Under the pieces are notes generated by a model that was given only the letters and a program-made list of their open reading frames with translations, was not told where the DNA came from and did no database searches. 60,392 nucleotides of DNA from Promicromonospora umidemergens. Lineage in GTDB: Bacteria > Actinomycetota > Actinomycetes > Actinomycetales > Cellulomonadaceae. Where the stretch lies: assembly GCF_024171995.1 (NCBI RefSeq), contig NZ_JAMTCT010000030.1, positions 1-60,392 of the forward strand. The letters run 5' to 3'. The position numbers and the translations under genes were made by a program. Below, one piece after another: positions 496 through 27,246 of this stretch; positions within the stretch are counted from its first letter, which is position 1; the number at the start of each line of letters is the position of its first letter.

Positions 496-3400
496 CTACC
501 AGCCATGGCTGGCCGCGGGATCACGTTCTCGGTTGGCTTGGTCGTGTCGGGCACGTTCGTCGGCTTCACGGAGCCTGCGCTCGCCCTCGGCTCGTGCCTC
601 CTTCAGGACGACCGGGACGCGCTCCATCGGCCGTGGACCGCGCCTCGCCGCCAGGGCGGTCTTGACGTGATCGGCCTGGGTGATGGTCTGCAACGCCCGG
701 ATGGCAATCAGATGCGCGTCTCCACGCTCGCCTTCGACCATCGGCCCCAGTGCGTCGGTGGAACTGGAGACCTGATAGCGGTCGCGGTAGGCGAGCACCT
801 GTCGTAATGCCGCGGTCCACGTCTCGCGTGCCGCGCGGTCCGATGGTGGTGGCGTGATCGTCTCCATCCACAGTTCCGGATCAGCAACCGCGTGTTCGAC
901 CAGGCGGTCCAGACGGGCCGCGATCAGTTCAGTATGCCGAACGAGCCAGTCCTGCACCTCCGGGTCCTTTCTGACCTGCGTTCGGTCGGTCGTTGCCATG
1001 CCGACCTCCTTGGTCGTTAGGTCGTGCTCCGGTCCGACGTCAGCCTGCGCGTGGTCCAGGAGGTGGTCGGCGTAGTGCTCGACCATGGTCCGCCACACGT
1101 CACCGGCGTCCAGCCGTACGTGGGCGCTGGCGCCGGTGATGCTGCCGACGCTCTGGGCAACATGGTCGATCAGGGCCGGCCAGTGAGTGAGTTCAACACG
1201 ACCGTGCAGATGGTCGACCAGGGCTCGCAGGAGCGGGATCTGTCGTTCGAAGTGATCCAGGGACCGGATGTGTTGCAGGTTCGGTTCCATCGCGAACCAC
1301 GCCAGTGGGATTGCCTCGACCAGGAGCGTGACCAGCGCGTCAGGGTCGCCGGTGGCGGCTTGGGCGGGGTCGGTCCCGGTCGGCATGTCCAGTGCCCGGG
1401 CGTGGGCTGCTTCGTCGGGGGTAAGCATGTCCCACGCGCGAGCGGCGGCGGTGCGTCCGGCGTTGTCAGCGTCTAGAGCCACGATCAGGTCGCGAAGGTC
1501 GCGTCCGCTGGCGTCCCGCAGGGCTTGGAGGTGCTGCTCGGTGATGCCGGTGCCGCACGCGGCCACCGGCACGATCTCGATACCCGTGCGCTCGGTCAGC
1601 GCTGAGGCGGCCAGGTGGAGGGCCGCTTGATCGGTGGCACCCTCGACCAAGACCGGGCGCGCTCCAGCAGCCAGGCGGGTGATGGCTTCGGGGTCGAGGC
1701 CGAGCAGGAGCTCGCTCTTGCGGTAGGCGACGGTCTCGGGGGTGTTGAGGTACTTCGGTGTGCGTTCGTCGGCGGCGTTGGGGTTGATGCGGGCGGTGAC
1801 GCCGACGACAGCGCCGGCCTGGTCGCGGACGGGGAAGATGATCCGGTTGCGGAACCGGTCGATCAGCCTCCCGTTCCTGGTCCTGGTCGCGACCCCCGCG
1901 TCGATGAGCTCGTCGAGGGTGTAGCCGAGCGTCTGCAAGTGGTCGCTCAGCCCGGTCCAGGACGCCGGGGCAGCACCCCACTCGGCTTCTGTCAGGCCAC
2001 GGTCAGCCATGTAATGGCGTGCCCAGGGTTGCGTGACGCTTTGTCCTGTCCACCAAGTCCACGCGTGCTCGTTGATCTCGACCGCCAGCGCCCGCGCTTT
2101 CGGGTCGACCGGCGCGGGCGGCTCACCGTATCGAGTGCGCGTGGCGATCTCGGCCGCACTCTCGCCCTGCCCAATCGACAGCTCGTCCGGCCCTCCAGGG
2201 GTGGGTTGGTCGGCATGTGGCAGACACGCGCCGGGCAGCAACGCGCTGCTCAACGCGAGGTCATCGGTGGCGTCAGGTGAGGTGGTGATCCAGGCCGGCA
2301 ACCCCCGCCCGTCCAGGTCGCGGGGTCGGGGCACGCCGACGCGGTGGTGCAGGACCTTCGCGACCGACCGGGCACCCTGGAACCCGCCCTCGACCGCCCG
2401 TCGCACGACGATCGCAGCATCAGTACCCGCCGCTTCGTGCTGGGACAACCGCTTAACCAGCGCAGGCCATACCTCGTCCGCTAGCACCAGGTCGGCCATC
2501 GGCTCAGGCAGAACCGACCGCACGGCCTGTCCCAGGCGACCGGCACGGTCCGGTTCGAGAAACGCGAGATAGGCGTCCTCGTACTCCGGCACCAGACGAG
2601 CCAGGGAGTGCGCGTAGCCCCACTCCTCCTCGATCACCCGGGAGGCGGACTTCTCCTCCCCGTCACGATCCAGGACGCCCTTGAGCGCGTTCAGAACCGC
2701 ACGCTCCTGGTCCGGCTGACGATGCGGGTCCAGGTCGAGGACGTCGTCGGTCTCGACGTACATCCGGTTCGAGTCCCTGCCGCGGGTGGTCGCGGTGTAG
2801 AGCTCGTTGCGGTTCATACCGACTCCGACCATCGCGTGGCTGGTGTCGACGGTCATGCCCTGCACCCGGTGGATCGTCGCTGCGTATCCGAGCTCGACAT
2901 GCGCGGCGACGTAGTCGGCCGGGAGCACCACGGTTGCACCCGTTTCCAGGTGCCGGGCCTGCAAGGCCCCGTCACGGCCCCGGGCGATGACGCGCCACAG
3001 GTCACCGTTCTTTACCCAGTCCCGACCCCAGTCGATGTGCCCGTCGTCATGCTCGGCGCGTAGGTGCCGGTTGTTCAGCCGGGTCACGATCACGTCCCCG
3101 ATCCCGGCACGGGTCTCGTCGTGCAGCGTGACGCCGTTCTCCTCGACCTCGCCGCGGGCGACGCGGTGCAGGCGGGCGCGGGCAGACAGGTTGGTGACCA
3201 GATCGTTCGTCGCGGCGATCATGATCGTCTTGCGGCCGTGGTCGGAGTCGGTCTGCCAGTTCGCGAACATCTCCTCCGCCATCGCCGCCGCGCTGCCGCC
3301 CTGGGTGCGGTGCTGGGTGACGTAGAAGTCCAGACCCCGGTGGTCCCCGTCGCGGAGCTGGAGGGAGGCCTCGGCCTCTCCGGTGGTGTGGAACCGGTGG

Positions 3401-5793
3401 ATCTGCGTCAGCTCGGCCGCGCCCGCCTGCTCCGCGAGCAGTCGGAGCGCACCGCCTGCGGCGACGGCGCCGAGCTGGGCGGGGTCCCCGAGCAGCCGGA
3501 CGCTGCCGCCGGCAGCCCGGGTGATGGCCAGGACCTGCGCGAGGGCGAGGGTGCCGGCCAGGCTGGCTTCGTCGACCAGCACGACAGTGCCTTCTTCGAC
3601 CGTGAGCCGTTCCCGGAGACGTTGCCCTCCGGCGCCCTGGTTGGCCAGGAGGAACATGTCCAGCGTCTCCGCGGTGATCCCGGGGTCGCCGAGGTCGGCA
3701 CCGAGGACTTCCGCTGCGGCGGCCGACGGCGCGAGCGCGATGAGCTTGCCGCCCGCGTTCTGGACGGCGGCGGCCAGGGCACGCATCGCCGTGGTCTTCC
3801 CGGTCCCGGCAGGGCCGATCCCCGCCGCCAGGACAGTGCTGGCCGCGAAGTGCGTCACCAGCTCCCGCTGCCCCGGGTTCAAGACTCGACCGGTCTCCGC
3901 CCGTACTCGCTCGATGGCCCGCTCGACTGCGTTGGGCTCGATGATCAGGCCACCGAGGGTGCGGGTCGCAGCCAGGAGCTGATCTTCAGCTTCCAGGACC
4001 GCGAGGGACGTGTACCTGGTCGAGCCGTGCACGAAGTAGACCGACTCGCCGTCCTTGCGACGCATCACGTCCGGCGGCTCGTTCAGGTCCGGGGGAGTGA
4101 TCACGAGGCTGACGTCGACGGCGTGCGCGGAGATCGTTGCGGCCAACGCGAGCAGGTCGGTTCCCTTCGGGGCGTGCTCCCGGGCGAGGCGGGTGGCCTC
4201 GGCCTGCAGGTGGTAGGTCGTCCACGTCGCCCGCCTACCAGCCACGTTCGTCAGACAGGCGTCCACCAGGTCACCCTGGGCCAGCACCTGCACGGCCAGG
4301 TCCGCAAGGACGCTCTGGCGACCGGTTGGTGTGCGCCACCGCAACTGCCGGAAGACCTGCGCGCGCGGCCATACCGCCGCGAGCCGCTCCACCGCGTCCC
4401 TGACGTCCTGAACCGCCCACCGGGTGGTCCCTCGCCCGGCGAGGTCCTGGGCGACGGCAGGCCACAGATCCTTGATCCCGTCGACCACGACCTGCCCCGT
4501 GCCCGGACGGGGGTTGAGCGCGCGCGCGAGCATCCGCGCCACCGCCTCCGGCCCGCCCAAGACCGTGGCTGCCATCTGGGCCCACTGCGGGAGCCGATGA
4601 CGTAGCCCGACGGGAGCGCCCTTGCCCTGCCGAGTGTCCAGGTTGGCCTGCTGCGCCAACCCGTACGCGGTCTTCGTGCCCGGCTCGTGCCCGTACTTGG
4701 CGCGGTACTCAGCCCGGAGAGTTTCGTAGGACTCCTGGATCGCCGCGCGCCGCCGGGAGAACACGTCCCGCAGCGCCTTGGGGATGCCAACGATCTCGCG
4801 AACACCTTGCTTGCCCCGGCCCCGGGTCTCGGTGTGGAACGCGACGCCGAGACGCTCGACCAGGAGCTGCTCGATGCGGGTGTTGTACCGCTCCGACGCC
4901 GCCACCTTGAGCGCCAGCAGCACCCGCCCGTCCAGGGCACGCCAGATCCCGTCCACGCCGAGGACCTTGGTGGAGACCGCGACGTGGGTGTGCAGGTTCG
5001 GGTCCCCGGCGCGGGAGTCCAGGTGGTCGAACGCCACGGCGGTCAATCCGTAGGTGTCGATCTGCCGCACCCCACCGGCACCGCCACGGGTGAGCGCGCC
5101 CTCAGCCTCGATCCACGCCAGCGTGTCCCGCCAAGCCTGGGTATGCACCTTCGTGATCGCCTCCCGCGTGGCCGCATCACCCAGACCCCACAACACGCTG
5201 ATCGACTTCGCCGGCGTGAACACCAGGTCATACCCCGCGACCGCCTTGCGGGGCTGCTGCCCGCGCTTGGCCAACCACGTGGCGACGTCCTTGTCCGACA
5301 GCTCGCCCGAAGGGCCCTTGTCGGTGTGCTCCTGCTGCGCGAGAGAACGGGCGACGTTCCAGCGGATCAGGTCCCGCTCGATCCCCGCCTCCGGCGGGCG
5401 ATCGCTCTCGGCAGCGAACGCAGCGAACGCTGCCTCAAGCGCCGCTGTGTAGCCGTCGTCGGGCCGGGCCTTGAAATGCGGGAACGCTCGCCCCAGCCGA
5501 CCGGTGCGCTCCGCATCCTGCTTCGACAATCCGCGGGCCAGCGCCTCGACCTCGAGCCGGTCCGCGTCCGGGTGCCGCCCCTGCCCGAACAGAGACTTCA
5601 TCTGCTTCTCGAGCACCTGGCCCGAGACCCCGAGCTGGTCCAGCCCCGACCCGACCCATTGCCCGGGTGGGTTGCCGTGCTGCATGTAGTAGTCCGTCAG
5701 CGACATGCCCCTGCCACGCGGCACGTCGCCCGACGCGACCTGCTGCGTCAGGTACGTGTACCCGCCACCCGCGCTGAGCACATGGGCCGTCAT
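496..5793 (-). CDS. MobF-type conjugative relaxase-helicase with C-terminal DnaG/TOPRIM-like region
   Basis: 1,765 residues from the ATG at 5793; an upstream in-frame ATG at 5850 would add 19. The protein begins the transfer of the element by nicking oriT and unwinding the strand. In order: the N-terminal TrwC/TraI relaxase domain with tyrosines in YTYL (about 12-14) and DYYMQHG (about 35), and the metal-binding triad in HLDSR...HTHV (His257, His268, His270); an SF1 RecD-like helicase with Walker A GPAGTGKT near 660, Walker B VLVDEAS and a GDPAQL motif; then from about 1240 a DnaG-like core with RFRNRIIFPVRD (about 1311), VEGATDQ (about 1381) and the acidic LDADNAGR (about 1434). The last three are the TOPRIM primase hallmarks. 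The primase-like part is unusual for a relaxase. A gene-free stretch of about 400 bases upstream is a plausible place for oriT and the promoter. Confidence 0.9.
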   Translation of the reverse strand: MTAHVLSAGGGYTYLTQQVASGDVPRGRGMSLTDYYMQHGNPPGQWVGSGLDQLGVSGQVLEKQMKSLFGQGRHPDADRLEVEALARGLSKQDAERTGRLGRAFPHFKARPDDGYTAALEAAFAAFAAESDRPPEAGIERDLIRWNVARSLAQQEHTDKGPSGELSDKDVATWLAKRGQQPRKAVAGYDLVFTPAKSISVLWGLGDAATREAITKVHTQAWRDTLAWIEAEGALTRGGAGGVRQIDTYGLTAVAFDHLDSRAGDPNLHTHVAVSTKVLGVDGIWRALDGRVLLALKVAASERYNTRIEQLLVERLGVAFHTETRGRGKQGVREIVGIPKALRDVFSRRRAAIQESYETLRAEYRAKYGHEPGTKTAYGLAQQANLDTRQGKGAPVGLRHRLPQWAQMAATVLGGPEAVARMLARALNPRPGTGQVVVDGIKDLWPAVAQDLAGRGTTRWAVQDVRDAVERLAAVWPRAQVFRQLRWRTPTGRQSVLADLAVQVLAQGDLVDACLTNVAGRRATWTTYHLQAEATRLAREHAPKGTDLLALAATISAHAVDVSLVITPPDLNEPPDVMRRKDGESVYFVHGSTRYTSLAVLEAEDQLLAATRTLGGLIIEPNAVERAIERVRAETGRVLNPGQRELVTHFAASTVLAAGIGPAGTGKTTAMRALAAAVQNAGGKLIALAPSAAAAEVLGADLGDPGITAETLDMFLLANQGAGGQRLRERLTVEEGTVVLVDEASLAGTLALAQVLAITRAAGGSVRLLGDPAQLGAVAAGGALRLLAEQAGAAELTQIHRFHTTGEAEASLQLRDGDHRGLDFYVTQHRTQGGSAAAMAEEMFANWQTDSDHGRKTIMIAATNDLVTNLSARARLHRVARGEVEENGVTLHDETRAGIGDVIVTRLNNRHLRAEHDDGHIDWGRDWVKNGDLWRVIARGRDGALQARHLETGATVVLPADYVAAHVELGYAATIHRVQGMTVDTSHAMVGVGMNRNELYTATTRGRDSNRMYVETDDVLDLDPHRQPDQERAVLNALKGVLDRDGEEKSASRVIEEEWGYAHSLARLVPEYEDAYLAFLEPDRAGRLGQAVRSVLPEPMADLVLADEVWPALVKRLSQHEAAGTDAAIVVRRAVEGGFQGARSVAKVLHHRVGVPRPRDLDGRGLPAWITTSPDATDDLALSSALLPGACLPHADQPTPGGPDELSIGQGESAAEIATRTRYGEPPAPVDPKARALAVEINEHAWTWWTGQSVTQPWARHYMADRGLTEAEWGAAPASWTGLSDHLQTLGYTLDELIDAGVATRTRNGRLIDRFRNRIIFPVRDQAGAVVGVTARINPNAADERTPKYLNTPETVAYRKSELLLGLDPEAITRLAAGARPVLVEGATDQAALHLAASALTERTGIEIVPVAACGTGITEQHLQALRDASGRDLRDLIVALDADNAGRTAAARAWDMLTPDEAAHARALDMPTGTDPAQAATGDPDALVTLLVEAIPLAWFAMEPNLQHIRSLDHFERQIPLLRALVDHLHGRVELTHWPALIDHVAQSVGSITGASAHVRLDAGDVWRTMVEHYADHLLDHAQADVGPEHDLTTKEVGMATTDRTQVRKDPEVQDWLVRHTELIAARLDRLVEHAVADPELWMETITPPPSDRAARETWTAALRQVLAYRDRYQVSSSTDALGPMVEGERGDAHLIAIRALQTITQADHVKTALAARRGPRPMERVPVVLKEARAEGERRLREADERARHDQANRERDPAASHGW

Positions 5794-6189
5794 CACGTCC
5801 CCCCACCACCTCCCGGTCACGGCTGGGAGCGGGTCAACTCGGGTTGGCACGGGCCGCTCACAGCGTTGTGCATTAGGTGTGTTTCCTTCGCCAAGGGAGG
5901 ACCGGTGCCCGGGTGCGCGACGCCGGGTCCGGCCGGTCGCGTTGGCGAGACGCGGCGAGCACGACGCCGGTGTGCGGCGGGCGGAACGGGTCGCGTGGGC
6001 TCGGCAGCGTCGGGACGGGATGCGAACGAGTGACAGGAACGGGCTCGGTGGGCCGGGGCGGGAAGAGACGCGAGGTTGGGTCCCCCCGGCGAACCGCGTC
6101 CGCCCCCCGGGGCATGCAAAGAGGCCGCCGACCCCGAACGGGGATGGCGACCTCCTGGCTCAACTGCTACACGACGAGCACTACCCGAC
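5794..6189. other. Gene-free stretch upstream of relaxase; candidate promoter/oriT region
   Basis: No convincing gene is present; open frames here are short and lack family features. The stretch lies between the relaxase start and the 3' end of the lanthipeptide operon, both on the minus strand. It holds a GGGAGG-rich leader for the relaxase, several GC-rich short inverted repeats around 5905-5990, and the hairpin at 6118-6154. Origins of transfer usually lie next to the relaxase gene, so this is where oriT is most likely, but I see no recognised nick-site consensus. Confidence 0.4.
6118..6154 (-). terminator. Probable terminator of the lanthipeptide operon
   Basis: Reading on the minus strand, arms GAGGTCGCCATCCCC and GGGGTCGGCGGCCTC form an almost perfect stem with a GTTC loop, followed by TTTGC. 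It sits 36 bases past the last gene of the operon. Confidence 0.65.
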
Positions 6190-12450: not shown

Positions 12451-12470
12451 AGTTCGTTCCCTTCGCAGAG

Positions 12471-12501
12471 CGTGGGAGCCGGTCGGGAGCCAGCCCCCAC
12501 G
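12471..12501 (-). terminator. Attenuator-like hairpin between precursor gene and lanB
   Basis: On the minus strand CGTGGGGGCTGG pairs with CCGGCTCCCACG (two G-U pairs) around a 7-base loop. There is no T-run. Partial terminators at this place are common in lanthipeptide operons and raise precursor over enzyme levels. Confidence 0.55.
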
Positions 12502-12553
12502 CCAGGGCGGTCAGTGCGGATCTACTGCGGTACTACTGGGGACTGCTGCAGAG

Positions 12554-12748: not shown

Positions 12749-12803
12749 GTTTGGTTCCTCCTTGTTCGGTACTGCTTGAGTGGTGTTCGCGCAGGTGCCC
12801 GAG

Positions 12804-14200: not shown

Positions 14201-15322
14201 CTAAAGGTCACTCAGGGGAAGTTCGAAACCGGCCGGACCGTCACCGGTGACGCTGCGCCATTGGGCGCGACGCCTGCCCTCGTCCCCGCGCGGGTAGGGC
14301 AGCCCAGCCTCTAGTGCTGCCTTCTCGATCGCGCGCATCGTTGTCCCGACGCCAGATGGGACCGGTCCGTGGCGCACCCAGTGCCCGCTTTGGAGGGCCC
14401 AGGTTTCGCACCGGGCCAAGTCCGGCCCGGTGCCGTGCCAAACCCGTAGCACGACCGGGCCCGGCGCGGTCCGCTCGGCGGTCGCGAGCTGCGCAGCCAG
14501 CGGTGACAACGCACCGTCCACGGCCGGGACGAGCGATGCAAGGATCGGCAGGACTCCGGCCTGGCCAATGGTGCCGGTCACCTGATCCGCAGCGCTAAGC
14601 ACGATGGCGGGCGCCTGCCCCATTGCAACTGAGCGTCCGGCCCAGGCGAGCATGTCCAGGTCGTTCACTCCGTCACCCACTGCCACCGTGCGCTTTGCGG
14701 GCACGTCAAGTTGGGCGCGCACGACTTCGAGTGCGACGGCCTTATTCACGGCAGGGGCCGTGACGTCGAGCCAGTCCGGTCCTTGCGGTGCCACTGTGAC
14801 CCCAGTGGCATGCAGCGCCTCTGCGTACCGGCGAACACCGGGAGCGACGAGCGCGAGGCGAGTGACTGGCTCGGCCATCAGATCTGGCAGCAGCACCGTC
14901 TTCTGCTGCCCATTGAGCTCACTGGGCTCGAACGCACCGCTGGTGCGCCACCCCCATCCGATCTCCTCGACCGCGATCCGGACGCTCGGAGCGACGTCCA
15001 GGGCACGGCGGATCACGGGCCGCGGTTCGAACATCCGGGCCTCGACAACGTCGTAGCCCGACGGCGCAGCCCGGTCGAGGCGAACGGTCACGGCCCCGTT
15101 CGAGCACACCGCCCAGCCGGTAGTGAGTCCCAGTCTCGTGGCGATCGGCAGCAGCCCGGCCAGCGACCTCCCAGTGGCGAGCACGACGTCGTGCCCAGCT
15201 GCGCGGACCAGATCCAGCAATTCGACCGTCCCGGAGGCGATCCGCCGGTCGCCGTCCACCAGCGTGCCGTCGATATCGAGGGCAACCAGGGCTCGCATGC
15301 ACGTCGTCGTCGCGGTGGTCAT
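14201..15322 (-). CDS. HAD-superfamily (Cof-type, IIB) phosphatase with C-terminal extension
   Basis: 373 residues; the ATG at 15322 overlaps the stop of the preceding small gene as ATGA, and an in-frame ATG eight codons later is also possible. The catalytic loop is ALDIDGTLVDGD (nucleophile Asp and acid Asp), motif II is VLATGRS, motif IV is VGDGVNDLDML. These define a Cof/YbjI-type sugar- or nucleotide-phosphate phosphatase. Typical Cof enzymes have about 270 residues; here about 100 more follow, rich in Trp and Arg, with no family I recognise. Cof-type enzymes include the phosphatases that act on 5-amino-6-ribitylamino-uracil phosphate. Since the divergent operon encodes a RibD-type reductase and deaminase, this gene could supply that step, but the link is inferred. 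Confidence 0.8.
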   Translation of the reverse strand: MTTATTTCMRALVALDIDGTLVDGDRRIASGTVELLDLVRAAGHDVVLATGRSLAGLLPIATRLGLTTGWAVCSNGAVTVRLDRAAPSGYDVVEARMFEPRPVIRRALDVAPSVRIAVEEIGWGWRTSGAFEPSELNGQQKTVLLPDLMAEPVTRLALVAPGVRRYAEALHATGVTVAPQGPDWLDVTAPAVNKAVALEVVRAQLDVPAKRTVAVGDGVNDLDMLAWAGRSVAMGQAPAIVLSAADQVTGTIGQAGVLPILASLVPAVDGALSPLAAQLATAERTAPGPVVLRVWHGTGPDLARCETWALQSGHWVRHGPVPSGVGTTMRAIEKAALEAGLPYPRGDEGRRRAQWRSVTGDGPAGFELPLSDL

Positions 15323-15624
15323 CGGGCCACCACCTGACGCAGGGCCGACCGCACCTGGATCTCCAGGCCTTCAACCAGCCCGGTCCAGAGTGTGTGCCCA
15401 GGGACGAACATGCGATGGTCCAGCGGGAAGTCGCAGCCCAGGGCACGCGCGATCTGCTCGCCCTGGTTGAGGTCCACGGGCTGCAGACAGATCCTGCCGC
15501 GGGTGAGCGTCACGATCTCGATGTGATCTGCCCCGACGGTTCGCAGCACCCGCGCGGTGGTCGCCATCGCTGCTTCCAGCCGCGAAGCCATGTCGGCTCC
15601 GTCGTTCTCACTGGATGTGCTCAT
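15319..15624 (-). CDS. Small unknown protein, first gene of the HAD operon
   Basis: 101 residues from ATG 15624, with CTGGAGAG about 7 bases upstream; this start is preferred to the longer frame at 15723, whose first part lacks protein-like composition. The sequence is amphipathic: an acidic Ser-rich start, then LEAAMATTARVLR, IEIVTLTRGRICLQPVD, and a helical end. No catalytic motif, membrane segment or known family is evident. The stop overlaps the HAD start, so the two are co-translated. The gene begins divergently from the regulator gene at 15786, sharing a 160-base promoter region. Confidence 0.65.
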   Translation of the reverse strand: MSTSSENDGADMASRLEAAMATTARVLRTVGADHIEIVTLTRGRICLQPVDLNQGEQIARALGCDFPLDHRMFVPGHTLWTGLVEGLEIQVRSALRQVVAR

Positions 15625-15698
15625 GGTGCTCTCCAGAACGTGTGGTGGCTTCGATGCCTGGAACGCTATGGGCGGCAGCCACACGGCAGTCCAGCCTC

Positions 15699-15723
15699 GT
15701 GCGCATAACTTGTATGCGCGCAC
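15699..15723. promoter_or_regulatory. Inverted repeat, candidate operator in the divergent promoter region
   Basis: GTGCGCAT, seven bases, then ATGCGCGCAC. The 6-base cores are perfect inverted copies. It lies between the two divergent operons and just upstream of the HTH regulator gene, so autoregulation and control of both operons is plausible. Confidence 0.4.
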
Positions 15724-15785
15724 CGCATCCGCCCTTCTCCCGCGCGTACGCTGACACCAGCCAAGTGATTGCCGTCACAGAGGGG

Positions 15786-17162
15786 GTGGAGTCGTTGCTG
15801 GATACGACCACAGCGCTCGTGCGCTACTGCACCCGCTGTGCCGCGCGCGTCGCGACCGACAACTCTTCCTCGATGTGCTCGGCCTGCGCCCGTTCGGCTC
15901 AGACCGGTCCGGGCGGTTCTCCGCAGTTGGACCGCTCGTTCTGGGAGACGGACCTCATGCGCGACGCCCTGGCGAGCCAGGACATGGGCGTGGTCGTGGC
16001 CGCATATCGACGTCACCCTCGTCATGGACGGCGTGCCCTCGCGCAGAGCCTCGTTGCCGGGTGGCTAGGGATCACCCAGGGACAGCTCAGCCGTATCGAG
16101 TCCGGCCGGAACAAGATCCGGGACATCGACCGGCTCCGCGACTACGCGTCGGTTCTCCACATCCCTCACGAGCTGCTCTGGTTCGCCACTGCGGACCCGT
16201 CGCCGTCGCGAGAACGTCGTCCGAAGCCGATGAATCTCCCCGGTGGGGTGCCTCGCCCGGCGACAAGTCACGCCACAGACGCCGCGCTGGCGGACTCGCT
16301 GCTGGCGACCTTGCGGCAGTACTCGACCACCGACAACATGACCGGCCCTGCCCCGATGCTTCCTCTGGCCGAGGCGCAGGCCACTTTCATCAACTCACTC
16401 CTTGCGGACGCCGGCCCGTCACGCAAGCAGCTCCTGTACGTCGGTGCGCGGTTCGCGGAGTTCATCGGTTGGCTGAACCAGGACAGCGGCAACATCCGGG
16501 CCGCCATGACGTGGTCGAACCGTGCCCTGGACATGGCTACCGAGATCAAGCGCCCGGGCCTCATCTCCTACATCCTGATGCGCAAGAGCAACATCGCATT
16601 CGACGCTGGCCGCCCTGACGTCGTCCTCGAACTTGCACGGGCCGCTGCCGAGGTCCCCGGCGAACTCACCTCACGGATGCGGGCACTCGCGGCCCGTCAG
16701 GAGGCGCACGCCCACGCTCTGTTAGGGGATCAGGACGCCTGCGCACACGCGCTCGACCGCGCTTTCGAGCTGGCGACCGCGCCCACCCAGGACACCGACA
16801 TCGCACGCTACTGCACCCCCAGCTACATCGAGATGGAAGCCGCCCACTGTTGGGTCGAGCTCGAAAAGCCAGAAAGGGCGCTCGGCGCGCTCCAGCAGGG
16901 ACTGGCGGAGTGGCGACCCGAATTCCGCCGCGACCTTGGACTCGGACTCGCACGGTTCGCCGTCGCCCACGCCCGAACCGGGGAGCCTGACGACGCCCTA
17001 GATATCGCGATGGAGGCCGTCCGGATCCTCAGCGAGACAGGCTCAGTCCGCACCGCAAAGCAGCTGTACCGGGCATCATCGATCCTGCACACCACGGGTG
17101 CTCGTAGCGAGGGGGCTGACCTGCGGCACTCTCTTCAGACGACGTTGCGTCTGAGAGGATGA
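15786..17162 (+). CDS. XRE-family regulator with N-terminal Cys-rich element and TPR-like C-terminus
   Basis: About 458 residues. The start is uncertain: GTG at 15786, or TTG at 15795 which has AGGGGG 8 bases before it; the long open frame upstream overlaps the opposite operon's leader and is not used. Near the N-terminus CTRC and, 16 residues later, CSAC form a possible zinc ribbon. The helix-turn-helix is ALAQSLVAGWLGITQGQLSR around residue 85. The remainder is alpha-helical with TPR-like pairs, as in many actinobacterial XRE regulators tied to secondary metabolism. The stop overlaps the creatininase-like gene as ATGA. It probably controls this operon and the divergent one. Confidence 0.8.
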   Translation: MESLLDTTTALVRYCTRCAARVATDNSSSMCSACARSAQTGPGGSPQLDRSFWETDLMRDALASQDMGVVVAAYRRHPRHGRRALAQSLVAGWLGITQGQLSRIESGRNKIRDIDRLRDYASVLHIPHELLWFATADPSPSRERRPKPMNLPGGVPRPATSHATDAALADSLLATLRQYSTTDNMTGPAPMLPLAEAQATFINSLLADAGPSRKQLLYVGARFAEFIGWLNQDSGNIRAAMTWSNRALDMATEIKRPGLISYILMRKSNIAFDAGRPDVVLELARAAAEVPGELTSRMRALAARQEAHAHALLGDQDACAHALDRAFELATAPTQDTDIARYCTPSYIEMEAAHCWVELEKPERALGALQQGLAEWRPEFRRDLGLGLARFAVAHARTGEPDDALDIAMEAVRILSETGSVRTAKQLYRASSILHTTGARSEGADLRHSLQTTLRLRG

Positions 17163-17935
17163 CGCGACCCCACGAGAGGACCGCAGAAGTGAGTTTCATG
17201 CCCCGGGTAACCGCGACCGACGCTGCTCGCCAGGGCGCCCGGATCGCGGTTCTACCGATAGGCAGCTTCGAGCAGCACGGAGACCACCTCCCCCTGGCTA
17301 CGGACACGATGGTCGCTACCCTGATCGCCGAAAGGGTCAGCGAGCGGTACGGGCTTCTTAACCTCCCGCCAGTGGCGATCTCCTGTTCGCACGAGCACGA
17401 AGGCATGCCGGGGCTGGCAGGCACGGTGAGCGTCAGCCCGGCCACGCTGATGGCGATCGTCAATGACGTGCGCCGATCGCTACAGCGTGCGGGCATTCAC
17501 AACCTGGTCCTGGTGAACGCGCACGGCGGCAACTACACGCTGTCCAACCTCGCTCAAGAAGCGAATGTCGAGAGCGCCGCGGTGGCGCTGTTCCCCGGAA
17601 ACGAGGACTGGAAGGCAGCCCGGGCAACGGCCGGGATCGTGACTGGCGGCAGGGCCGACATGCATGCCGGCGAGCTCGAGACCTCGATCCTCATGCACGC
17701 CTTCCCTGACTCCGTCGGAGACACGTACGCGAATAACGACCACGACTCGCCGTCACGTAACCACCTCACCACCCTGGGGATGAAGGCCTACACGACTTCC
17801 GGAGTGATCGGGATGCCCTCGCTCGCGACCGCAGCCAAGGGGCAGGCCGTCATCGAAGCACTGGTGGATCGGTTCGCCGGATGTCTCAGCCTGTTCGACG
17901 ACGACCACCCGACCCGGAGGGCCATCAATGGCTGA
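17159..17935 (+). CDS. Creatininase/ArfB-type amidohydrolase
   Basis: 258 residues from the overlapping ATG at 17159; ATG 17198 is an alternative and would give a more usual N-terminus. The metal ligands of the creatininase family are present: Glu38, His40 and Asp49 in GSFEQHGDHLPLATDT, His122 in NAHGGN, and Glu172 in HAGELETS. Members include creatininase, the archaeal formamide hydrolase ArfB, which removes formate from a GTP-derived pyrimidine, and the mycofactocin protease MftE. The next two genes encode a RibD-type reductase and deaminase in the archaeal pathway order, so the ArfB-like reaction is favoured here. No mycofactocin genes are present. Confidence 0.85.
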   Translation: MTRPHERTAEVSFMPRVTATDAARQGARIAVLPIGSFEQHGDHLPLATDTMVATLIAERVSERYGLLNLPPVAISCSHEHEGMPGLAGTVSVSPATLMAIVNDVRRSLQRAGIHNLVLVNAHGGNYTLSNLAQEANVESAAVALFPGNEDWKAARATAGIVTGGRADMHAGELETSILMHAFPDSVGDTYANNDHDSPSRNHLTTLGMKAYTTSGVIGMPSLATAAKGQAVIEALVDRFAGCLSLFDDDHPTRRAING

Positions 17936-18608
17936 GCGCCTACCCTTTGTGCTGCTCTCCGTCGCGGTGTCGCTCGACGGGTACATCGACGACAACCATC
18001 CCGAACGGCTGCGGTTGTCGAACCTTGCCGACTTCGACCGCGTGGACGAAGAGCGCAAGGGAGTCGACGCGATCCTCATCGGGGCCAATACCGTGCGCCG
18101 CGACAACCCGCGCCTGGTGGTCAAGTCCGAAGAACGTCGCGCTCAGCGGGTCGCCGCCGGCAAGCCTGCCTACCCGATCAAGGTGACGATCACGGCGAGC
18201 GGCGACCTTGATCCCGGATCAAAGTTCTTCGGAACCGTGGACGCCGAGAAGATCGTGTACACGACCGACGCCGCCGAAGCGACGGTCAAGGAGCGGCTTG
18301 GCAACGTCGCCACCGTCGTCGCGCTCGGCGAGACCGTGACACCAGCAGCTGTCCTCGAGGACCTCGCCGCGCGCGGAGTCGAGCGAATCATGGTGGAAGG
18401 TGGCGGACACATTCACACCGTGTTCCTGACCGCCGACCTCGTCGACGAGCTCCAGATCGTGTTCGCCCCGATCTTCGTCGGCCAGAACAGCGCACCGCGC
18501 TTCGTTCACGACGGTGTGTTCCCCCAGGACTTCCGCAACCGCATGAATCTGATCGAGACGCGCGCAGTTGGCGACTGTGCCCTCCTGCGCTACCGGCCGA
18601 TCCGATGA
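17928..18608 (+). CDS. RibD C-domain/RIB7-type pyrimidine reductase
   Basis: 226 residues, ATG overlapping the previous gene by 8 bases. The dihydrofolate-reductase-like fold of riboflavin reductases is clear: SVAVSLDGYID near the start, GANTVRRDNP near residue 52 and VEGGG near 148. The length matches free-standing reductases of archaea and fungi (about 220 residues), which reduce the ribosyl group of 2,5-diamino-6-ribosylamino-pyrimidinone 5'-phosphate to ribityl using NADPH. In most bacteria this domain is fused to the deaminase in RibD; here the two are separate overlapping genes. A related reduction of a different pyrimidine is possible. Confidence 0.85.
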   Translation: MAERLPFVLLSVAVSLDGYIDDNHPERLRLSNLADFDRVDEERKGVDAILIGANTVRRDNPRLVVKSEERRAQRVAAGKPAYPIKVTITASGDLDPGSKFFGTVDAEKIVYTTDAAEATVKERLGNVATVVALGETVTPAAVLEDLAARGVERIMVEGGGHIHTVFLTADLVDELQIVFAPIFVGQNSAPRFVHDGVFPQDFRNRMNLIETRAVGDCALLRYRPIR

Positions 18609-19066
18609 CGGCCGCCAACGCTCCAGACGATCGTCGGCGCCTGGAGGAGGCCATCGCTCTGGCGAGCAGGTGCACGCCGAAGGCCACCTCATTCTGCGTC
18701 GGCGCGACCATCGTGGACGCCGACGGGACCGTGCTGGCGACCGGCTACTCGGGGAGGTTTGACCCCCACGACCACGCCGAAGAGACAGCGCTGAACGAGC
18801 TCGACGACGCGGGCCGTGCCCGGCTCACCACCGCAACCCTCTACACCTCGCTCGAACCGTGCAGCAGTCGAGCGAGCCGGCCCGTTACCTGCACCGAGCA
18901 CATCCTGCGAGCGGGGATACCACGCGTCGTCTTCGCCTTGTCCGAACCCGACCTCTTCGTGGACTGCGTCGGCGCCGCGACTCTACGAGCAGCCGGAGTT
19001 GACGTCATCCAGTTCGAAGACCTCGCCCACGCCGCGTGGGGCGCAAACCAGCACCTGGATCGTTAA
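18605..19066 (+). CDS. Cytidine-deaminase-fold / RibD N-domain-type deaminase
   Basis: 153 residues; the start overlaps the reductase stop as ATGA. The zinc site is complete: His57 and Glu59 in HAEE, Cys86 in LEPCS and Cys96 in RPVTC. The PC-x9-C arrangement with an intervening SRxSRP resembles RibD-type pyrimidine deaminases rather than plain cytidine deaminases. It would deaminate the 2-amino group of the reduced pyrimidine to the uracil form. It is the last gene of the operon. A small stem (CTCAGC/GCTGAG at 19107-19121) follows before the convergent regulator. The substrate is inferred from the neighbours only. Confidence 0.82.
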   Translation: MTAANAPDDRRRLEEAIALASRCTPKATSFCVGATIVDADGTVLATGYSGRFDPHDHAEETALNELDDAGRARLTTATLYTSLEPCSSRASRPVTCTEHILRAGIPRVVFALSEPDLFVDCVGAATLRAAGVDVIQFEDLAHAAWGANQHLDR

Positions 19067-19161: not shown

Positions 19162-20223
19162 TCAGAACCCGGGTGCTTCCATGCCTCCGTTGTCCCGTCG
19201 GCGGGGCGGCCCTGCTGGAGAGGGCCAGGGCTCGGTCCTCGTTGGCTTGGGCTTGGTTCGCACTGGCGACTCTTGCCGCATGGCCTCGAATGCGGTGGCC
19301 GGTCGGGTGAGGTCGGGCGGGGTCCACCGGTCTTCGGGGTCGTCCTGGAGGTAGAAGGGTGTGCCTCCGGGCTCGGGAGCTCCGATGGTGAGGGCACCCT
19401 GGACGTAGGGCCGTTCGTACGGGTCCTGGATGTACCCGGCCGGGGGCGTGGCCGCGATGTGCTCAGCGATCTCGCGTTCCTCGCCACTGACCGCGGGTCT
19501 CGTGTCGCCGACCTTTGCCGCGAGCCGCTGGTACGCAGCGATTCCGTCGATGGCCCAGCGCGCAAGGTCGTAGACCTCCATGCGGAGCACACTCATGAAC
19601 TGAGCGGGCGCGGGAGCGCCAGCTGTCCGGGCCCTGGCTTCCAGTGTGCCGGCTCTCTCTTCTTCTACAAGCATTGCCAGGAGCTGGCCGCGAGCTTCAA
19701 ACCTGCCGTAGGCGGTGATGGCGGCCAAGCGCGCTTCGAGGACTCGTCCGTATCCGCCGGTGAACCAGGCTGCGGCGACCGGAGTTCGTTCGGTTCGGCC
19801 GGGAAGTACCTGGGTGCTGGTGTTCTTCAGCACGCCACGCTGGATCGCTCCGACGGGTGTGGAGGTGGCGGCCGGGACGGCGCTGACTTCCAGGGGGTAG
19901 AGGATCTCTACCGGTGAGACCCCGAGCGCAGCCGCGAGCACGGTGACGTCTTGCAGGTAGATCTTCTCCCGGGGCCTGGTCTCCAGGTTCGCGATGCTCG
20001 CGCGAGCCATCGGATAGCCCAGCGCGACAGTACGGTCCGCGATCTCCTGCGTCGACAAGCCCGCGGCCAAGCGTGCGGCTCGCAGACGCTCGCCGATCCC
20101 CGCCGTCCAGGAACTCGACCACGCGTCGCCGGACTGCTGGACGGATTGCTCGCCAGAGTCAGGGCGCTTGGGCACAGTCGGGTGCGGCATGCGCACCAGG
20201 TTACTCACGGAGCGCACAATCAC
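19162..20223 (-). CDS. XRE-family HTH DNA-binding protein of the mobile element
   Basis: 353 residues from the GTG at 20223, which has a perfect AAGGAGG 8 bases upstream; the much longer open frame reaching 20607 is rejected as antisense to the next gene. The N-terminal HTH covers ERLRAARLAAGLSTQEIADR to LGVSPVEILYPLE. The middle is helical and the C-terminal 90 residues are Pro- and Arg-rich and probably disordered. No enzymatic domain is seen. It is divergent from the parB-containing unit, so a repressor role over element maintenance genes is likely. Confidence 0.75.
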   Translation of the reverse strand: MIVRSVSNLVRMPHPTVPKRPDSGEQSVQQSGDAWSSSWTAGIGERLRAARLAAGLSTQEIADRTVALGYPMARASIANLETRPREKIYLQDVTVLAAALGVSPVEILYPLEVSAVPAATSTPVGAIQRGVLKNTSTQVLPGRTERTPVAAAWFTGGYGRVLEARLAAITAYGRFEARGQLLAMLVEEERAGTLEARARTAGAPAPAQFMSVLRMEVYDLARWAIDGIAAYQRLAAKVGDTRPAVSGEEREIAEHIAATPPAGYIQDPYERPYVQGALTIGAPEPGGTPFYLQDDPEDRWTPPDLTRPATAFEAMRQESPVRTKPKPTRTEPWPSPAGPPRRRDNGGMEAPGF

Positions 20224-20250
20224 AACACCCACCTCCTTGTTGTGTATGCC

Positions 20251-20279
20251 TTGCACATTTCTGGATCTGGACCTAACGT
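20251..20279 (+). promoter_or_regulatory. Probable promoter of the 20326-22414 unit
   Basis: TTGCAC, a 17-base spacer, and TAACGT lie 47 bases before the first ATG. The region is also the upstream leader of the divergent XRE gene. Confidence 0.45.
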
Positions 20280-20325
20280 AGTACACACGCCGGGCTCGCC
20301 GTGTGTGCGCCTTGGCCGAGGACCG

Positions 20326-21312
20326 ATGATGAGCGACGAGACCACGGGCGCAGTCCGGACGGCAGGGCCGGACCGCCACCCCGAACCGCAGCCCGCCAAG
20401 GTTCTCGAGCGCTCGGACAGCGCAGTCTCGGCTCTCGCTCCCGCCGACCAGGAGAAGCTGGGCGACCTCGATGTTCGGCCGGAGTTCGCTACCCCAGAAG
20501 GGCTCCGTGCCCTGCTCGACCGCCTCGCCGAGGCGGGACCGGGGTCGTGGGCTGCTTCTCCGGAAGCGACGGCGCTGCTGGCGTACTGCGCCGACCGGTA
20601 CGTGCACCTAGCGCGCAAGCATCACGCCTCCGGACACGATGCCGCCGTCGCAGCGTTCGAAGCACTCCGCAGCGTGTCCGTGCGACGCTCACGGAACCCA
20701 TGGGCAGTGGTCACCACAGCGGTGGCCCGCACGCTGCGGGCCGAGGCCCGCGCCGACGACCTGCTGTGCTCCCGGGACCGCGCACGTCGGCTGATGGCCC
20801 GCACCGACCTGCCACCAGCCTGGCGCATCGGTAACCCCTCCGCCCCGACCCCGACTCCCGGCACCGAACCGGCGCCCTGGCTCGAACTCGCTCTGGCCAC
20901 CACACGCTCCGACCTCGCGGGAGCCTGCGATCTCGACCCGGCTACAGCCCTGGTCGTGGGTCAGGTCCGGGCCGCGACCCGGACGACGGTCGCGGTCCTT
21001 GTGGCGGTCGGATGGCCGAACGACGTGGCCCGGCTCGGGCTGGAGCACATCACCACGACTCTGACGTCGGCCGGTGGCGTCCCTACAGCGCGCGAACGGC
21101 TGCGCAAGGACCGCCAACCAGCGACAGCACTGGACATCGACCAGCCCACCTGGACCCGTCTCGTCTCGGCCGTGCTCGGCACACCGACCCGGAACGGGCT
21201 CCTGCATCGCCTCCTGGCCGGCGACACTGCGCACCAGGTGATCACGGACGACGCGCACGACCTCACGCCCCCACGTCACGTCGACCAGCGGGAGGCTGGG
21301 CATGCCGCATGA
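20326..21312 (+). CDS. Unknown protein paired with ParB-like gene; sigma-factor-like helical segment
   Basis: 328 residues from ATG 20326 (a second ATG follows directly), with a GAGGA site close upstream. I do not recognise a named family. Residues about 90-150 (AAFEALRSVSVRRSRNPWAV, then AVARTLRAEARADDLLCSRD) look like the helical core of a sigma-like or DNA-binding protein. The rest is Ala/Thr/Asp rich. The C-terminus overlaps the following parB-like gene by 11 bases, showing co-translation. The position between a regulator and ParB suggests a role in replication, partition or control of the integrated element. Confidence 0.65.
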   Translation: MMSDETTGAVRTAGPDRHPEPQPAKVLERSDSAVSALAPADQEKLGDLDVRPEFATPEGLRALLDRLAEAGPGSWAASPEATALLAYCADRYVHLARKHHASGHDAAVAAFEALRSVSVRRSRNPWAVVTTAVARTLRAEARADDLLCSRDRARRLMARTDLPPAWRIGNPSAPTPTPGTEPAPWLELALATTRSDLAGACDLDPATALVVGQVRAATRTTVAVLVAVGWPNDVARLGLEHITTTLTSAGGVPTARERLRKDRQPATALDIDQPTWTRLVSAVLGTPTRNGLLHRLLAGDTAHQVITDDAHDLTPPRHVDQREAGHAA

Positions 21313-22414
21313 AGACCTCAGCGACGGGCTGCGACTGGACCGCGCGATCGACTCCATCACCGTCGGGTACCGGCACCGGCGCGAGGTCGGCGACCTGTCC
21401 GCGCTGTGTGACTCGATCACGCGTAGCGGGCTGCTGAGCCCCCTGACCGTCACCCCCGATGGACTGCTGCTGTGCGGGTGGCGACGCCTGGAAGCCGTCC
21501 GACTACTCGGCTGGAAGACCGTTCCAGTGTTCGTCCGCCGCGCCTCAGCCGGACTGCGTGACGTGATCGCCGAGCACGACGAGAACACGATCCGCGAGCC
21601 CCTGCCGCTTCAGGCCGCCGAGGAGCTGTACCGCGAGTACAAGACCATCGAGACCGAACAAGCCACCCACCGGCAGCACGCGACCCGCTTCCACACCGTC
21701 AAAGACCTGAACGGCGGAAGCTCGAACGACGGGGGCAAAAGGGACAACACGGGTCCCGCCGAATCGGCGGGACCGTCACAGCACACCCTGCCTGCACGGC
21801 ACGGTGACGCGCGCGCCAAGGCCGCCCAGATCGTTACTGGCGCCAAGTCCTACACCCGCCTCGAACACACCGGACGGATCAAGGACACCCGCGACGACCC
21901 CGCCATGCCCGCCCACATCCGCGCCATGGCCGAGACCGCCTGGCACGACATCACCACAAACGGCGCCTCCCCGGAGAAGCAGTGGAAGCAGATTCGCGGA
22001 GCCATCAACGAACACCACGCCACCGATGCCAAGCCCCCGGCAAACGACAGCGAGGACCATCCCGCTGAGCTGGCCGCCATCGCCCAGGCCGCGCTCGCCC
22101 GGCCACGTACACCACGCACTCCGACACCTCCGCCCGACGACGCCAGCACCGCAACGGAGCTGGGCACGGCGCGGCCGCTAACCGCGCTCGTCGCAGACCT
22201 CGACGAGTGGATCAACCAGGCCGACGCCGATGCTCTCGCCGTGACCGCGAACAGCAGTGACCTCACCCGCCTGCACCGGGCGACCGAACGCCTCGACTAT
22301 CTCTGCACCCGCATCCACGCCGCCCGCCGCAAGCGCCACCCCGCGCTCCGGCGTCAGAAACCCACCGGAACACAGGGTCACGTCGTCAACGAAGAACAGC
22401 CTCCGCTCTGGTAG
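21302..22414 (+). CDS. ParB/Spo0J-like nuclease-domain protein
   Basis: 370 residues, ATG inside the end of the upstream gene. The ParB N-terminal domain is visible: RREVGDL near residue 26, LCDSITRSGLLSPLTVTP, then CGWRRLEAVRLLGWKTVPVF around 57-76, in which C-G-W-R-R replaces the usual G-E-R-R box. After about residue 110 the sequence is hydrophilic, with a helical C-terminus ending in RKRHPALRRQKP. It probably binds DNA and helps maintain or regulate the element; no parA is nearby. Its last 86 bases have a diverged copy about 3 kb downstream. Confidence 0.8.
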   Translation: MPHEDLSDGLRLDRAIDSITVGYRHRREVGDLSALCDSITRSGLLSPLTVTPDGLLLCGWRRLEAVRLLGWKTVPVFVRRASAGLRDVIAEHDENTIREPLPLQAAEELYREYKTIETEQATHRQHATRFHTVKDLNGGSSNDGGKRDNTGPAESAGPSQHTLPARHGDARAKAAQIVTGAKSYTRLEHTGRIKDTRDDPAMPAHIRAMAETAWHDITTNGASPEKQWKQIRGAINEHHATDAKPPANDSEDHPAELAAIAQAALARPRTPRTPTPPPDDASTATELGTARPLTALVADLDEWINQADADALAVTANSSDLTRLHRATERLDYLCTRIHAARRKRHPALRRQKPTGTQGHVVNEEQPPLW

Positions 22415-25432: not shown

Positions 25433-25461
25433 TCAACGAAGCACAGCGTCCGCTCTGGTAG
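25377..25461 (+). pseudogene. Diverged remnant of a parB 3' end
   Basis: This 85-base segment aligns with 22329-22414, the end of the intact parB, at about 84% identity with three single-base gaps. Translated, RKRRPALWRQNPSGAQGQ parallels RKRHPALRRQKPTGTQGH, then the frame shifts, while both copies keep GTCAACGAAG and the final TCCGCTCTGGTAG. No 5' part of the gene is present. The segment overlaps the 3' end of the integrase gene on the other strand. In a simpler ancestor parB and integrase probably met here tail to tail. Confidence 0.75.
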
Positions 25462-26782
25462 CCACCGCCTTCTCCCGCGACCCCATCCCGGATGCCGCAG
25501 CGACCTTGGCTCGCTTCAGCTTCGCGGCTTCCTCCTTGCCGATGTCGACCATCTCCTGCAGCACGGCCGACGTGTCCGGCGCCAAGCGCAGCCGCTCGAT
25601 GTAGTGCCTCCCGGTAACCCCGGCGTCAATCTTGTGACCCAGCAATGCCGCCGCGTCCGCCGCCCGCATTCGCCGCGCGACAAAGGTCGCCGCGGTGGAG
25701 CGCAGCAGGTGTGGATGCACCTCACCGGCCATCTTCGCCAGAGCCAGCGCCGACCGGAGAGTGCGGCGCAGGTTGGCGGTCGTCTGCTCCCTCACTCGCT
25801 TGTCCTTGAATCGGCGCGAAGGAAATACCGGCATCTCTGCGCTCGTCACCACAGGGCGGATCTGCTCCAGCGACTCCACGACGAACGGCGGGATGATGAT
25901 GACCCGCTCCCCCGCATCGGTCTTCGGCATGGGCTGCCGCACCGTGCCCTGCCCCTTCACGTCCGTCAGGGTCGCTTCCACGGCGATCGTCGGCAGCCCG
26001 TCCGGGGACAGGTTCACCTCGCCCCAGCGCAGCGCCATCACCTCTCCGATGCGCATCCCGGTCCCGAGCATTACATCGATCGCGGCCGGCAGTTGACCCG
26101 TCGGCTTCGGCCCCGGCTTGCCCTCGCGGTCTTTCTCCCACGCCCGGACCGCGGTCCGCAGGCGGTACACGTCCGTCACTGTCATCGCCTTGGGGTTCGG
26201 CTTCTTCCTCGCAGGCGCGATCGTCTTGCGCATCGGGTTGTCGCGAATCGCGTCGTGGACCACGGCCCGGTCGAGCACCATGCACAGAGCGGATCGCACC
26301 TGCAGCGTGGTGGTCACCATCTCCTGCCCCTTGGCCTGCCGCTCTTTGGACTTGCCCAGCTTCACGATCCCGTCCACGAACGCCTGGCACAGGGCAGGCG
26401 TGAGCTCGTTCAGTCGGCGCTTGCCCAGGGTTGGCACCACGTGGTTGCCCAGCAGCCGCTCGTACTCGTCCACAGTCTGTGGACGGATCGGCGGGCGCGG
26501 CCACTCCGAACGCACTCGCATCTCCGCGACCCACTGCCGGCACGCAAGCCCGACCTTCGAGTTGGGCTTCAGGTCGTCCGAGCCGCGGGCCGCGCTCAGT
26601 CGCTCCACGACCCCCTTCTGGACCTTCAACCGAGCCGCATCGTCCGTCGACGCGTTGCGGGATACCCACGTCTCCGTGCCGTCCCACAGGCACAACCGCG
26701 TGCGCCCACGCCACGTCTTCAGGCCGGTCTGCTGAAGAAAGATCTCACCGTGCTCGCCCGGTTCCAGCTTGTGCTTGCCCAT
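25433..26782 (-). CDS. int: Tyrosine recombinase integrase of the element
   Basis: 449 residues, ATG three bases after the excisionase stop. The N-terminal SAM-like core-binding domain spans about 70-175. The catalytic domain has Arg244 in GTGMRIGEV, His358 and Arg361 in HPHLLR, His383 in LLGHK and the nucleophile Tyr394 in GRHYIE. All expected residues are present, so the enzyme should be active. Enzymes of this type insert actinobacterial elements into the 3' ends of tRNA genes, and tRNA-Ala is under 500 bases away. The C-terminus extends about 50 residues past the nucleophile, with a Lys/Arg-rich stretch. Confidence 0.93.
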   Translation of the reverse strand: MGKHKLEPGEHGEIFLQQTGLKTWRGRTRLCLWDGTETWVSRNASTDDAARLKVQKGVVERLSAARGSDDLKPNSKVGLACRQWVAEMRVRSEWPRPPIRPQTVDEYERLLGNHVVPTLGKRRLNELTPALCQAFVDGIVKLGKSKERQAKGQEMVTTTLQVRSALCMVLDRAVVHDAIRDNPMRKTIAPARKKPNPKAMTVTDVYRLRTAVRAWEKDREGKPGPKPTGQLPAAIDVMLGTGMRIGEVMALRWGEVNLSPDGLPTIAVEATLTDVKGQGTVRQPMPKTDAGERVIIIPPFVVESLEQIRPVVTSAEMPVFPSRRFKDKRVREQTTANLRRTLRSALALAKMAGEVHPHLLRSTAATFVARRMRAADAAALLGHKIDAGVTGRHYIERLRLAPDTSAVLQEMVDIGKEEAAKLKRAKVAAASGMGSREKAVATRADAVLR

Positions 26783-27240: not shown

Positions 27241-27246
27241 ACCGGG

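Follow-up and report, generated by a model that had tools for sequence, protein, structure and literature searches.

Why should a mobile stretch of an actinobacterial genome carry enzymes that resemble those of early riboflavin biosynthesis? The question is raised by contig NZ_JAMTCT010000030.1 of Promicromonospora umidemergens (RefSeq assembly GCF_024171995.1), which was analysed over its full length of 60,392 nucleotides (the window; contig C30 of the searched genome of 6.6 Mb in 65 contigs). An earlier note on this DNA had recognised genes for a creatininase-like hydrolase, a RibD-type reductase and a RibD-type deaminase in one overlapping operon, with the gene of a Cof-type phosphatase divergent from it, and had proposed that they supply a modified pyrimidine or flavin-like molecule. 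The four genes and their arrangement are confirmed by matches to PF02633, PF01872, PF00383 and PF08282 over the cut-offs (Table 1); the first gene of the operon, which encodes a regulator of the NsdA family, had been missed. The overlaps between regulator and creatininase (4 bases), creatininase and reductase (8 bases), and reductase and deaminase (4 bases) fit a single operon, in which reductase and deaminase are encoded by separate genes. The host genome contains eight RibD_C matches and two matches to the window creatininase. Because one of the RibD_C matches, in a 413-residue reading frame, lies about 1.4 kb from the host's own cyclohydrolase II gene, the module in the window is extra and not needed for basic riboflavin supply. 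The interpretation that we favour, with belief and doubt in about equal measure, is that the regulator-plus-enzyme cassette would be cargo of an integrative conjugative element, and that its enzymes would make or remove the ligand of the linked regulator.

This interpretation is carried by the recurrence of the regulator-enzyme pair; further support comes from a fusion of the two in one locus (L257), from two separate combinations of the enzymes, from the two types of adjacent cyclohydrolase II and from a sister locus in the host (L364), all described below. A profile of twelve regulators (A4) was searched against 249 genomes of Streptomycetaceae at E values up to 1e-50, and the DNA downstream of every match was read. 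The regulator is present at 103 places in 89 of the genomes, and at 74 of these it is directly followed, mostly within 60 bases, by an enzyme that acts in the metabolism of GTP-derived pyrimidines or pterins: a creatininase (26), a reductase alone (17), a reductase plus deaminase (12), a RibD-like deaminase (3), or a pterin-4a-carbinolamine dehydratase (16; PF01329 is over the cut-off in both dehydratase partners that were scanned). The dehydratase and RibD-like classes, as well as a class with TIR proteins, were absent from the survey profile. In a tree of 114 regulators, built by a quick method and without L288 (where no more than a short open stretch of the regulator is present), the partner label changes nine times, compared with a minimum of seven and a mean of 66.7 after shuffling; none of 200 shuffles was as low, although near-copies help this figure. 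Partners of the TIR, dehydratase and RibD-like classes each fall into a single group. Since the recurrent unit is a regulator with an enzyme, often a single one, a regulatory role fits better than the supply of a modified flavin, and in view of the cassettes with one enzyme only, a complete pathway to a single end product is unlikely.

The same pairing is found on plasmids. Among nine plasmid records read for the creatininase, four (L032–L035) have an NF053720 regulator directly in front of it, all over the cut-off, and in a further plasmid record (L038) the upstream gene just misses the model (72 vs 75 bits). The creatininase gene of L039 is divergent from a cyclohydrolase II gene, and L036, L037 and L040 have neither regulator nor cyclohydrolase II. 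All eight plasmid records read for the reductase, which include SLP2, SAP1, pSCL2 and pSLE2, have the regulator in front, and six of them also have a deaminase match. Beyond plasmids, profile searches of all open reading frames (ORFs) covered 82 reductase loci, namely the best 80 named genome contigs among the matches listed and two viral contigs. A regulator match is present in 20 of them, directly before the reductase in 18 and elsewhere in L073 and L081; a deaminase match is present in 43, and no creatininase was found within the fetched flanks of the 82 loci. In locus L041 (G047, a genome of the same family as the host), the small ORF and the phosphatase seen in the window accompany regulator and creatininase, and reductase and deaminase are missing.

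Compound operons were encountered twice among the loci read, once in the window (regulator, creatininase, reductase, deaminase) and once in locus L156 of genome G470 (regulator, reductase, deaminase, creatininase). The regulator of the window groups with the creatininase-type regulator of L041, and its reductase with unlinked copies from Promicromonosporaceae; the regulator of L156 belongs among the reductase-type regulators, and its reductase among those linked to a regulator. These affiliations indicate that the creatininase joined reductase and deaminase twice independently, from two sides, which argues that the three enzymes act on connected substrates.

The window regulator starts with a ribbon-like stretch containing four cysteines, which is followed by a helix-turn-helix (HTH) and a tetratricopeptide-repeat (TPR) part. 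Its open frame extends from position 15615, with candidate starts at 15786 (GTG), 15795 (TTG) and 15819 (GTG), among which the choice is not settled. The protein passes the model for NsdA-family TPR regulators (NF053720) but reaches only 44 bits with the model for NsdA proper (NF050130; cut-off 830), and its HTH_31 match is below the cut-off. NsdA is reported to be a negative regulator in Streptomyces (PMC12243394); the window regulator shares the NCBIfam subfamily NF053720 with NsdA and NsdB but remains below the NsdA model. In an AlphaFold2 model, the TPR part (165–458) mostly exceeds a predicted local distance difference test (pLDDT) value of 90, and the HTH part is of low confidence (about 57–69). 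The best Foldseek matches of the model are TPR superhelices, including Rap (4gyo) and domain III of MalT (1hz4), with modest scores (TMq 0.42). Rap and MalT are TPR proteins that bind ligands, and both the RRNPP quorum-sensing receptors and MalT combine an HTH with a TPR domain that holds the ligand in its groove. The window regulator may have this layout in common with them, but its partner gene encodes an enzyme and the similarity in fold is limited.

The carrier is indicated to be an integrative conjugative element by genes for a TrwC-type relaxase, an HTH protein and a ParB_N-like protein, and by a tyrosine integrase gene near a tRNA-Ala gene (Table 1). Its left end lies outside the contig. 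A repeat of the tRNA end exceeding 12 bases, as expected for an attachment site, was not found in the window.

Table 1. Features of the window that are relevant to the cassette and its carrier element
Feature	Position	Strand	Evidence
TrwC/MobF relaxase-helicase	496..5850	-	PF08751, 264 bits
Cof/HAD-IIB phosphatase with C-terminal extension of ~100 aa; pathway membership uncertain	14201..15322	-	PF08282, 125 bits
Small protein, 101 aa	15319..15624	-	no Pfam or NCBIfam match
Putative divergent promoter region (gap between small ORF and regulator)	15625..15785		no inverted repeat
NsdA-family HTH-TPR transcriptional regulator, operon gene 1	about 15786..17162	+	NF053720, 169 bits (cut-off 75)
Creatininase-family hydrolase, proposed formamide hydrolase (FAPy deformylase)	17159..17935	+	PF02633, 207 bits
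RibD_C reductase, probably archaeal-type, stand-alone	17928..18608	+	PF01872, 146 bits; TIGR01508 best model
RibD-N-type zinc deaminase, stand-alone	18605..19066	+	PF00383, 69.5 bits; TIGR00326 best NCBIfam model
Element backbone: HTH gene, replication-type reading frame, ParB_N-like gene	19169..22186		HTH_31 and ParB_N just below cut-offs
Tyrosine integrase, about 460 bases from tRNA-Ala	25433..26782	-	PF00589, 43 bits
tRNA-Ala	27245-27319	-	tRNA search

In the mechanism that we propose, the NsdA-family protein would serve as switch and as receptor of a GTP-derived pyrimidine or pteridine, which the creatininase-type hydrolase, the RibD-type reductase and the RibD-type deaminase would form or take away. 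The creatininase would deformylate nucleotides of the formamidopyrimidine (FAPy) type, the reductase and then the deaminase would act in the archaeal order, and either the product or the substrate would bind to the TPR domain and set the transcription of the operon and perhaps the functions of the element. Among actinobacteria, the coupling of many such switches to enzymes suggests a small-molecule control system that has not been described. The parts are of known kinds, but their consistent coupling is, as far as we have seen, undescribed: a full-text literature search, by which subscription papers were mostly not covered, found no published description of the pairing. A wider proposition, put forward tentatively and with more doubt than belief, is that plasmids and integrative elements of actinobacteria signal, within or between cells, by means of a GTP-derived pyrimidine or pteridine. 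NsdA-family HTH-TPR receptors, each encoded together with an enzyme that makes or clears the ligand (creatininase, RibD reductase, RibD deaminase or pterin dehydratase), would then control element or developmental genes, and the operons of the window and L156 would be compound, stacked versions. If this is true, a set of genes that recurs without assignment on well-studied plasmids of Streptomyces (SLP2, SAP1, pSCL2) would gain a testable function, and the chemistry of flavins and pterins would be tied to the control of genes in mobile elements and in bacteria that undergo development.

An unlikely alternative, which is closest to the original proposal, is a metabolic shunt that runs in the archaeal order (deformylation, reduction, deamination, dephosphorylation) and yields 5-amino-6-ribitylaminouracil, or else a modified pyrimidine or flavin; the regulator would only switch this pathway. 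Such a shunt draws support from the identities of the genes. In a creatininase tree of 77 rows, from which L029 (a split match) and sequence duplicates had been dropped, the window enzyme belongs to a clade of 44 rows on a long stem (support 100/99), in which 34 members are linked to a regulator and 7, nested inside, are adjacent to a cyclohydrolase; the remaining 3 are of neither kind. The motif CSHEH and three other motifs, which resemble a metal site, are present in all 44 members, and CSHEH is present in none of 34 rows outside. Outside the clade lie L159 and L160 (which alone exceed the cut-off for MftE), the other creatininase of the host (L046), and the other creatininases compared; a clustering of the window enzyme with such creatininases, which would have pointed to a different pathway, was not seen. 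The models for MftE (TIGR03964; 133 bits, cut-off 172), creatininase proper (TIGR04448; 108 bits, cut-off 235) and the ArfB deformylase (NF033501; 37 bits, cut-off 180) are all missed. A precedent for the proposed deformylation is BrbF (SMc02977) of Sinorhizobium, a creatininase-family protein known in rhizobia and Brucella that was shown to deformylate the formylated compound in question (Yurgel et al. 2022, PMC9478397). Both enzymes are of the creatininase family, and the reaction, the release of formate from a formylamino-pyrimidine nucleotide, may be the same, but the window creatininase lies in an actinobacterial clade that is tied to a TPR regulator.

The reductase matches best to TIGR01508 (142 bits), below the cut-off of 186, and the best solved relatives of its profile are 5xux and kin, 6p8c, and 2azn, which are of the archaeal type that acts before deamination. 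The deaminase stays below the RibD model (TIGR00326; 55.6 bits, cut-off 156), but HAE and PC-x9-C are kept in an alignment of six deaminases. Of the claim that the enzymes are split in archaeal style, the separation of the genes holds up; the reductase is closest to the archaeal type, and the curated threshold is not reached. With the archaeal start of riboflavin synthesis (GCH III, ArfB, a reductase of the 2azn/5xux type), the window shares the split of reductase and deaminase, probably the type of reductase, and the proposed deformylase step; unlike there, the ArfB model is not reached, no ring-opening enzyme is linked, and the cassette is linked to a regulator and located on mobile elements.

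GTP cyclohydrolase II falls into two types at the position of Tyr105 in the Escherichia coli enzyme. In a profile-based search, all seven creatininase-adjacent copies from Streptomyces have a Met at this position, and an eighth Met-type copy, in G645, lies beside a creatininase of its own; all nine reductase-adjacent copies without a creatininase have a Tyr. The Met form, which we take to be the type that stops at the formylated FAPy product, is also that of SCO6655, an enzyme said to stop at this product. Because the Met side and the Tyr side each consist largely of one clade, the split is a correlation based on few independent events. The residue that the neighbouring cyclohydrolase II has at this position, Met or Tyr, may serve as a genomic rule for which actinobacterial creatininases should be formamide hydrolases. 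In this respect, the proposed sequence of formamide hydrolysis, reduction and deamination is backed by the Met-type-adjacent copies in the creatininase clade, by BrbF (PMC9478397) and by the reductase, which is closest to the archaeal type and whose close relatives lie beside Tyr-type cyclohydrolases.

Chromosomal clusters with a cyclohydrolase II gene are L039 and L150–L155 (creatininase, Met, in Streptomyces) and L083, L100, L102, L108, L111, L112, L117, L128 and L132 (reductase, Tyr, elsewhere); the latter are the nine among 15 reductase loci labelled as chromosomal cyclohydrolase clusters in which the cyclohydrolase was found in the fetched DNA. Their neighbours, annotated in L039 and judged by eye in the rest, include genes for 6-pyruvoyl-tetrahydropterin synthase (PTPS), a glycosyltransferase, a methyltransferase, an alcohol dehydrogenase and a CDP-alcohol transferase. 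The Streptomyces clusters, presumably of the SCO6655 type, have the creatininase clade and an implied chemistry of GTP-derived pyrimidines in common with the window but differ in their other neighbours (PTPS, glycosyltransferase), and no regulator of the window family was found beside Met-type clusters in six genome loci searched or in L039.

Against the shunt, no dedicated first enzyme of the cyclohydrolase II family was found. A search of the whole host genome with PF00925 yielded a single GTP cyclohydrolase II, on contig C2. This agrees with the earlier observation that the window contains no such gene; the paralogue for which the rest of the element was to be checked was not found, and a dedicated cyclohydrolase II in element or host is rejected, since the only copy is Tyr-type. 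The host also has riboflavin genes of its own. Moreover, many relatives of the cassette have only one enzyme (creatininase, reductase or pterin dehydratase in 26, 17 and 16 of the 103 places), which cannot be a full pathway.

The phosphatase may serve the pathway as its dephosphorylation step, as had been proposed, but it is a weaker member and stands outside the regulator-enzyme unit that recurs. In favour of this role, a phosphatase gene of L364 lies in one operon with genes for GTP cyclohydrolase I and PTPS. A Cof-type phosphatase gene (150 bits, cut-off 137) directly adjoins, and is divergent from, the gene of a stand-alone RibD_C reductase in L105 (5973-6797, -), a locus without the regulator in a metagenome-assembled genome of Pseudonocardiales, and L069 and L078 have matches farther off. 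These are the only phosphatase matches among the 82 reductase loci, and none is among the 20 with a regulator, which speaks against the shunt; beside a regulator-creatininase pair without reductase and deaminase, the phosphatase occurs in L041.

Several observations also weigh against the preferred reading, in which the enzymes make or remove the regulator's ligand. In 14 other cassette genomes (G047, G470 and those of 12 among the 26 loci with a creatininase cassette in Streptomycetaceae), 27 of the 28 cyclohydrolase II genes are Tyr-type (that of G607, L341, was read by eye) and one is Met-type (G645), so that the host and 13 of the 14 genomes have the Tyr-type only. No dedicated maker of the formylated compound was seen in these in searches for cyclohydrolase II (GCH III, PF05165, was not searched). 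This makes the substrate of the creatininase uncertain; the enzyme may use FAPy nucleotides that are leaked or chemically formed, or another amide. A search for inverted repeats that could serve as operator in the 321-base divergent region found none. As many as 62 of the 82 reductase loci lack a regulator match, and in the survey of Streptomycetaceae the regulator is followed by a TIR protein at 16 of the 103 places and by neither kind of partner at 13. The survey counts favour the creatininase and reductase classes, because the profile was made from regulators linked to these enzymes, and they are not independent, because the loci are related by descent. In a wider search of the phylum (396 genomes), 30 regulator loci were read, and no more than 5 of them, including that of the window, have such an enzyme behind the regulator; other partners are a NUDIX or luciferase-like gene in two loci and a gene for a Pro/Gln-rich protein behind several distant relatives of NsdA.

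The fidelity of the pairing would also be explained if the enzymes were protein partners of the regulator, that is, metabolite-binding co-regulators whose catalysis is secondary. The pterin dehydratase DCoH acts in this manner as a protein partner of HNF1, and a pterin dehydratase is among the partners found here, each of which is paired one-to-one with its regulator. In L257 (950-3301, -), regulator and RibD-like deaminase are even fused in a single open frame of 783 residues, a single case that may be an assembly error. We nevertheless consider this explanation quite improbable, since motifs resembling active sites are kept in all 44 creatininases and in the six aligned deaminases, and since the creatininases adjacent to cyclohydrolase II nest in the same clade.

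Very little weight can be given to a role in conflict or surveillance, in which the regulator would respond to a disturbance of metabolites derived from GTP, and its partner, whether enzyme or TIR protein, would be the effector. Apart from the TIR-domain proteins behind 16 of the 103 regulators, this explanation could invoke a candidate defence ATPase on the carrier, but the TIR-linked regulators form a clade of their own, and PADLOC has no model match for creatininase, reductase and phosphatase and only weak partial matches for regulator and deaminase. The ATPase, of the AAA type and 707 aa in length (23052-25175), matches the candidate defence model PDC-S06 with 896 bits; it is flanked by a 32-base direct repeat (22384-22415 and 25431-25462; 94%) and looks like a small insertion. 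The regulators with a TIR partner are those of L274, L276, L279, L281, L284, L285, L287, L289, L292–L295, L297, L298, L300 and L301; those whose ends were read have a glycine-rich C-terminal tail in common.

Hardly credible is a function in tailoring or supply for the FxLD lanthipeptide encoded next door, with the creatininase as an MftE-like peptidase: the phosphatase gene does lie 155 bases upstream of the FxLD methyltransferase gene on the same strand, but the peptidase role is rejected by both the MftE cut-off and the tree, and the neighbourhood stressed in the earlier note is not seen with the cassette elsewhere, as no matches to LanB, LanC or the FxLD methyltransferase were found in the 20 regulator-bearing reductase loci or L041. 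The lanthipeptide set itself (7320-14045, -), which the element also carries, comprises LanB, a LanC-like protein, a Lant_dehydr_C protein, the precursor (TIGR04363; 58 bits, cut-off 30) and the methyltransferase (TIGR04364; 445 bits, cut-off 320).

The small ORF, which the earlier note had not listed, precedes the phosphatase gene and overlaps its start by 4 bases. Its family has 84 matches in 22 of 199 genomes among the matches listed, nine of them in the host, including the copy in the window. The family (window; L345–L368) is amplified in the genus; its members mostly form a pair with a Cof-type phosphatase and are divergent from HTH, NUDIX or UTRA genes at several loci. A match to the profile of the window phosphatase lies near the small ORF in all 11 short loci, although it is weak in L355 (43 bits) and L356 (95 bits), and in 12 longer loci, half of which represent the same places, only L366 lacks it. 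What follows the phosphatase varies: some loci have an unassigned ORF together with an APH-type gene, others a radical-SAM-like gene or the genes for GTP cyclohydrolase I and PTPS, and in others nothing clear is seen.

The combination with GTP cyclohydrolase I occurs in L364, on contig C16 of the same genome, to which the element backbone at 19169-22186 is 77.2% identical over 3078 alignment columns. In a single run (1051-3846) at the cargo position, this locus encodes a related small ORF, an unassigned ORF, a Cof-type phosphatase (HAD-IIB, PF08282), a GTP cyclohydrolase I (PF01227, 193 bits) and a PTPS-family protein (PF01242, 58 bits). The strain thus has two related loci with a common backbone block, beside which the enzymes of GTP-derived pyrimidine or pterin chemistry differ.

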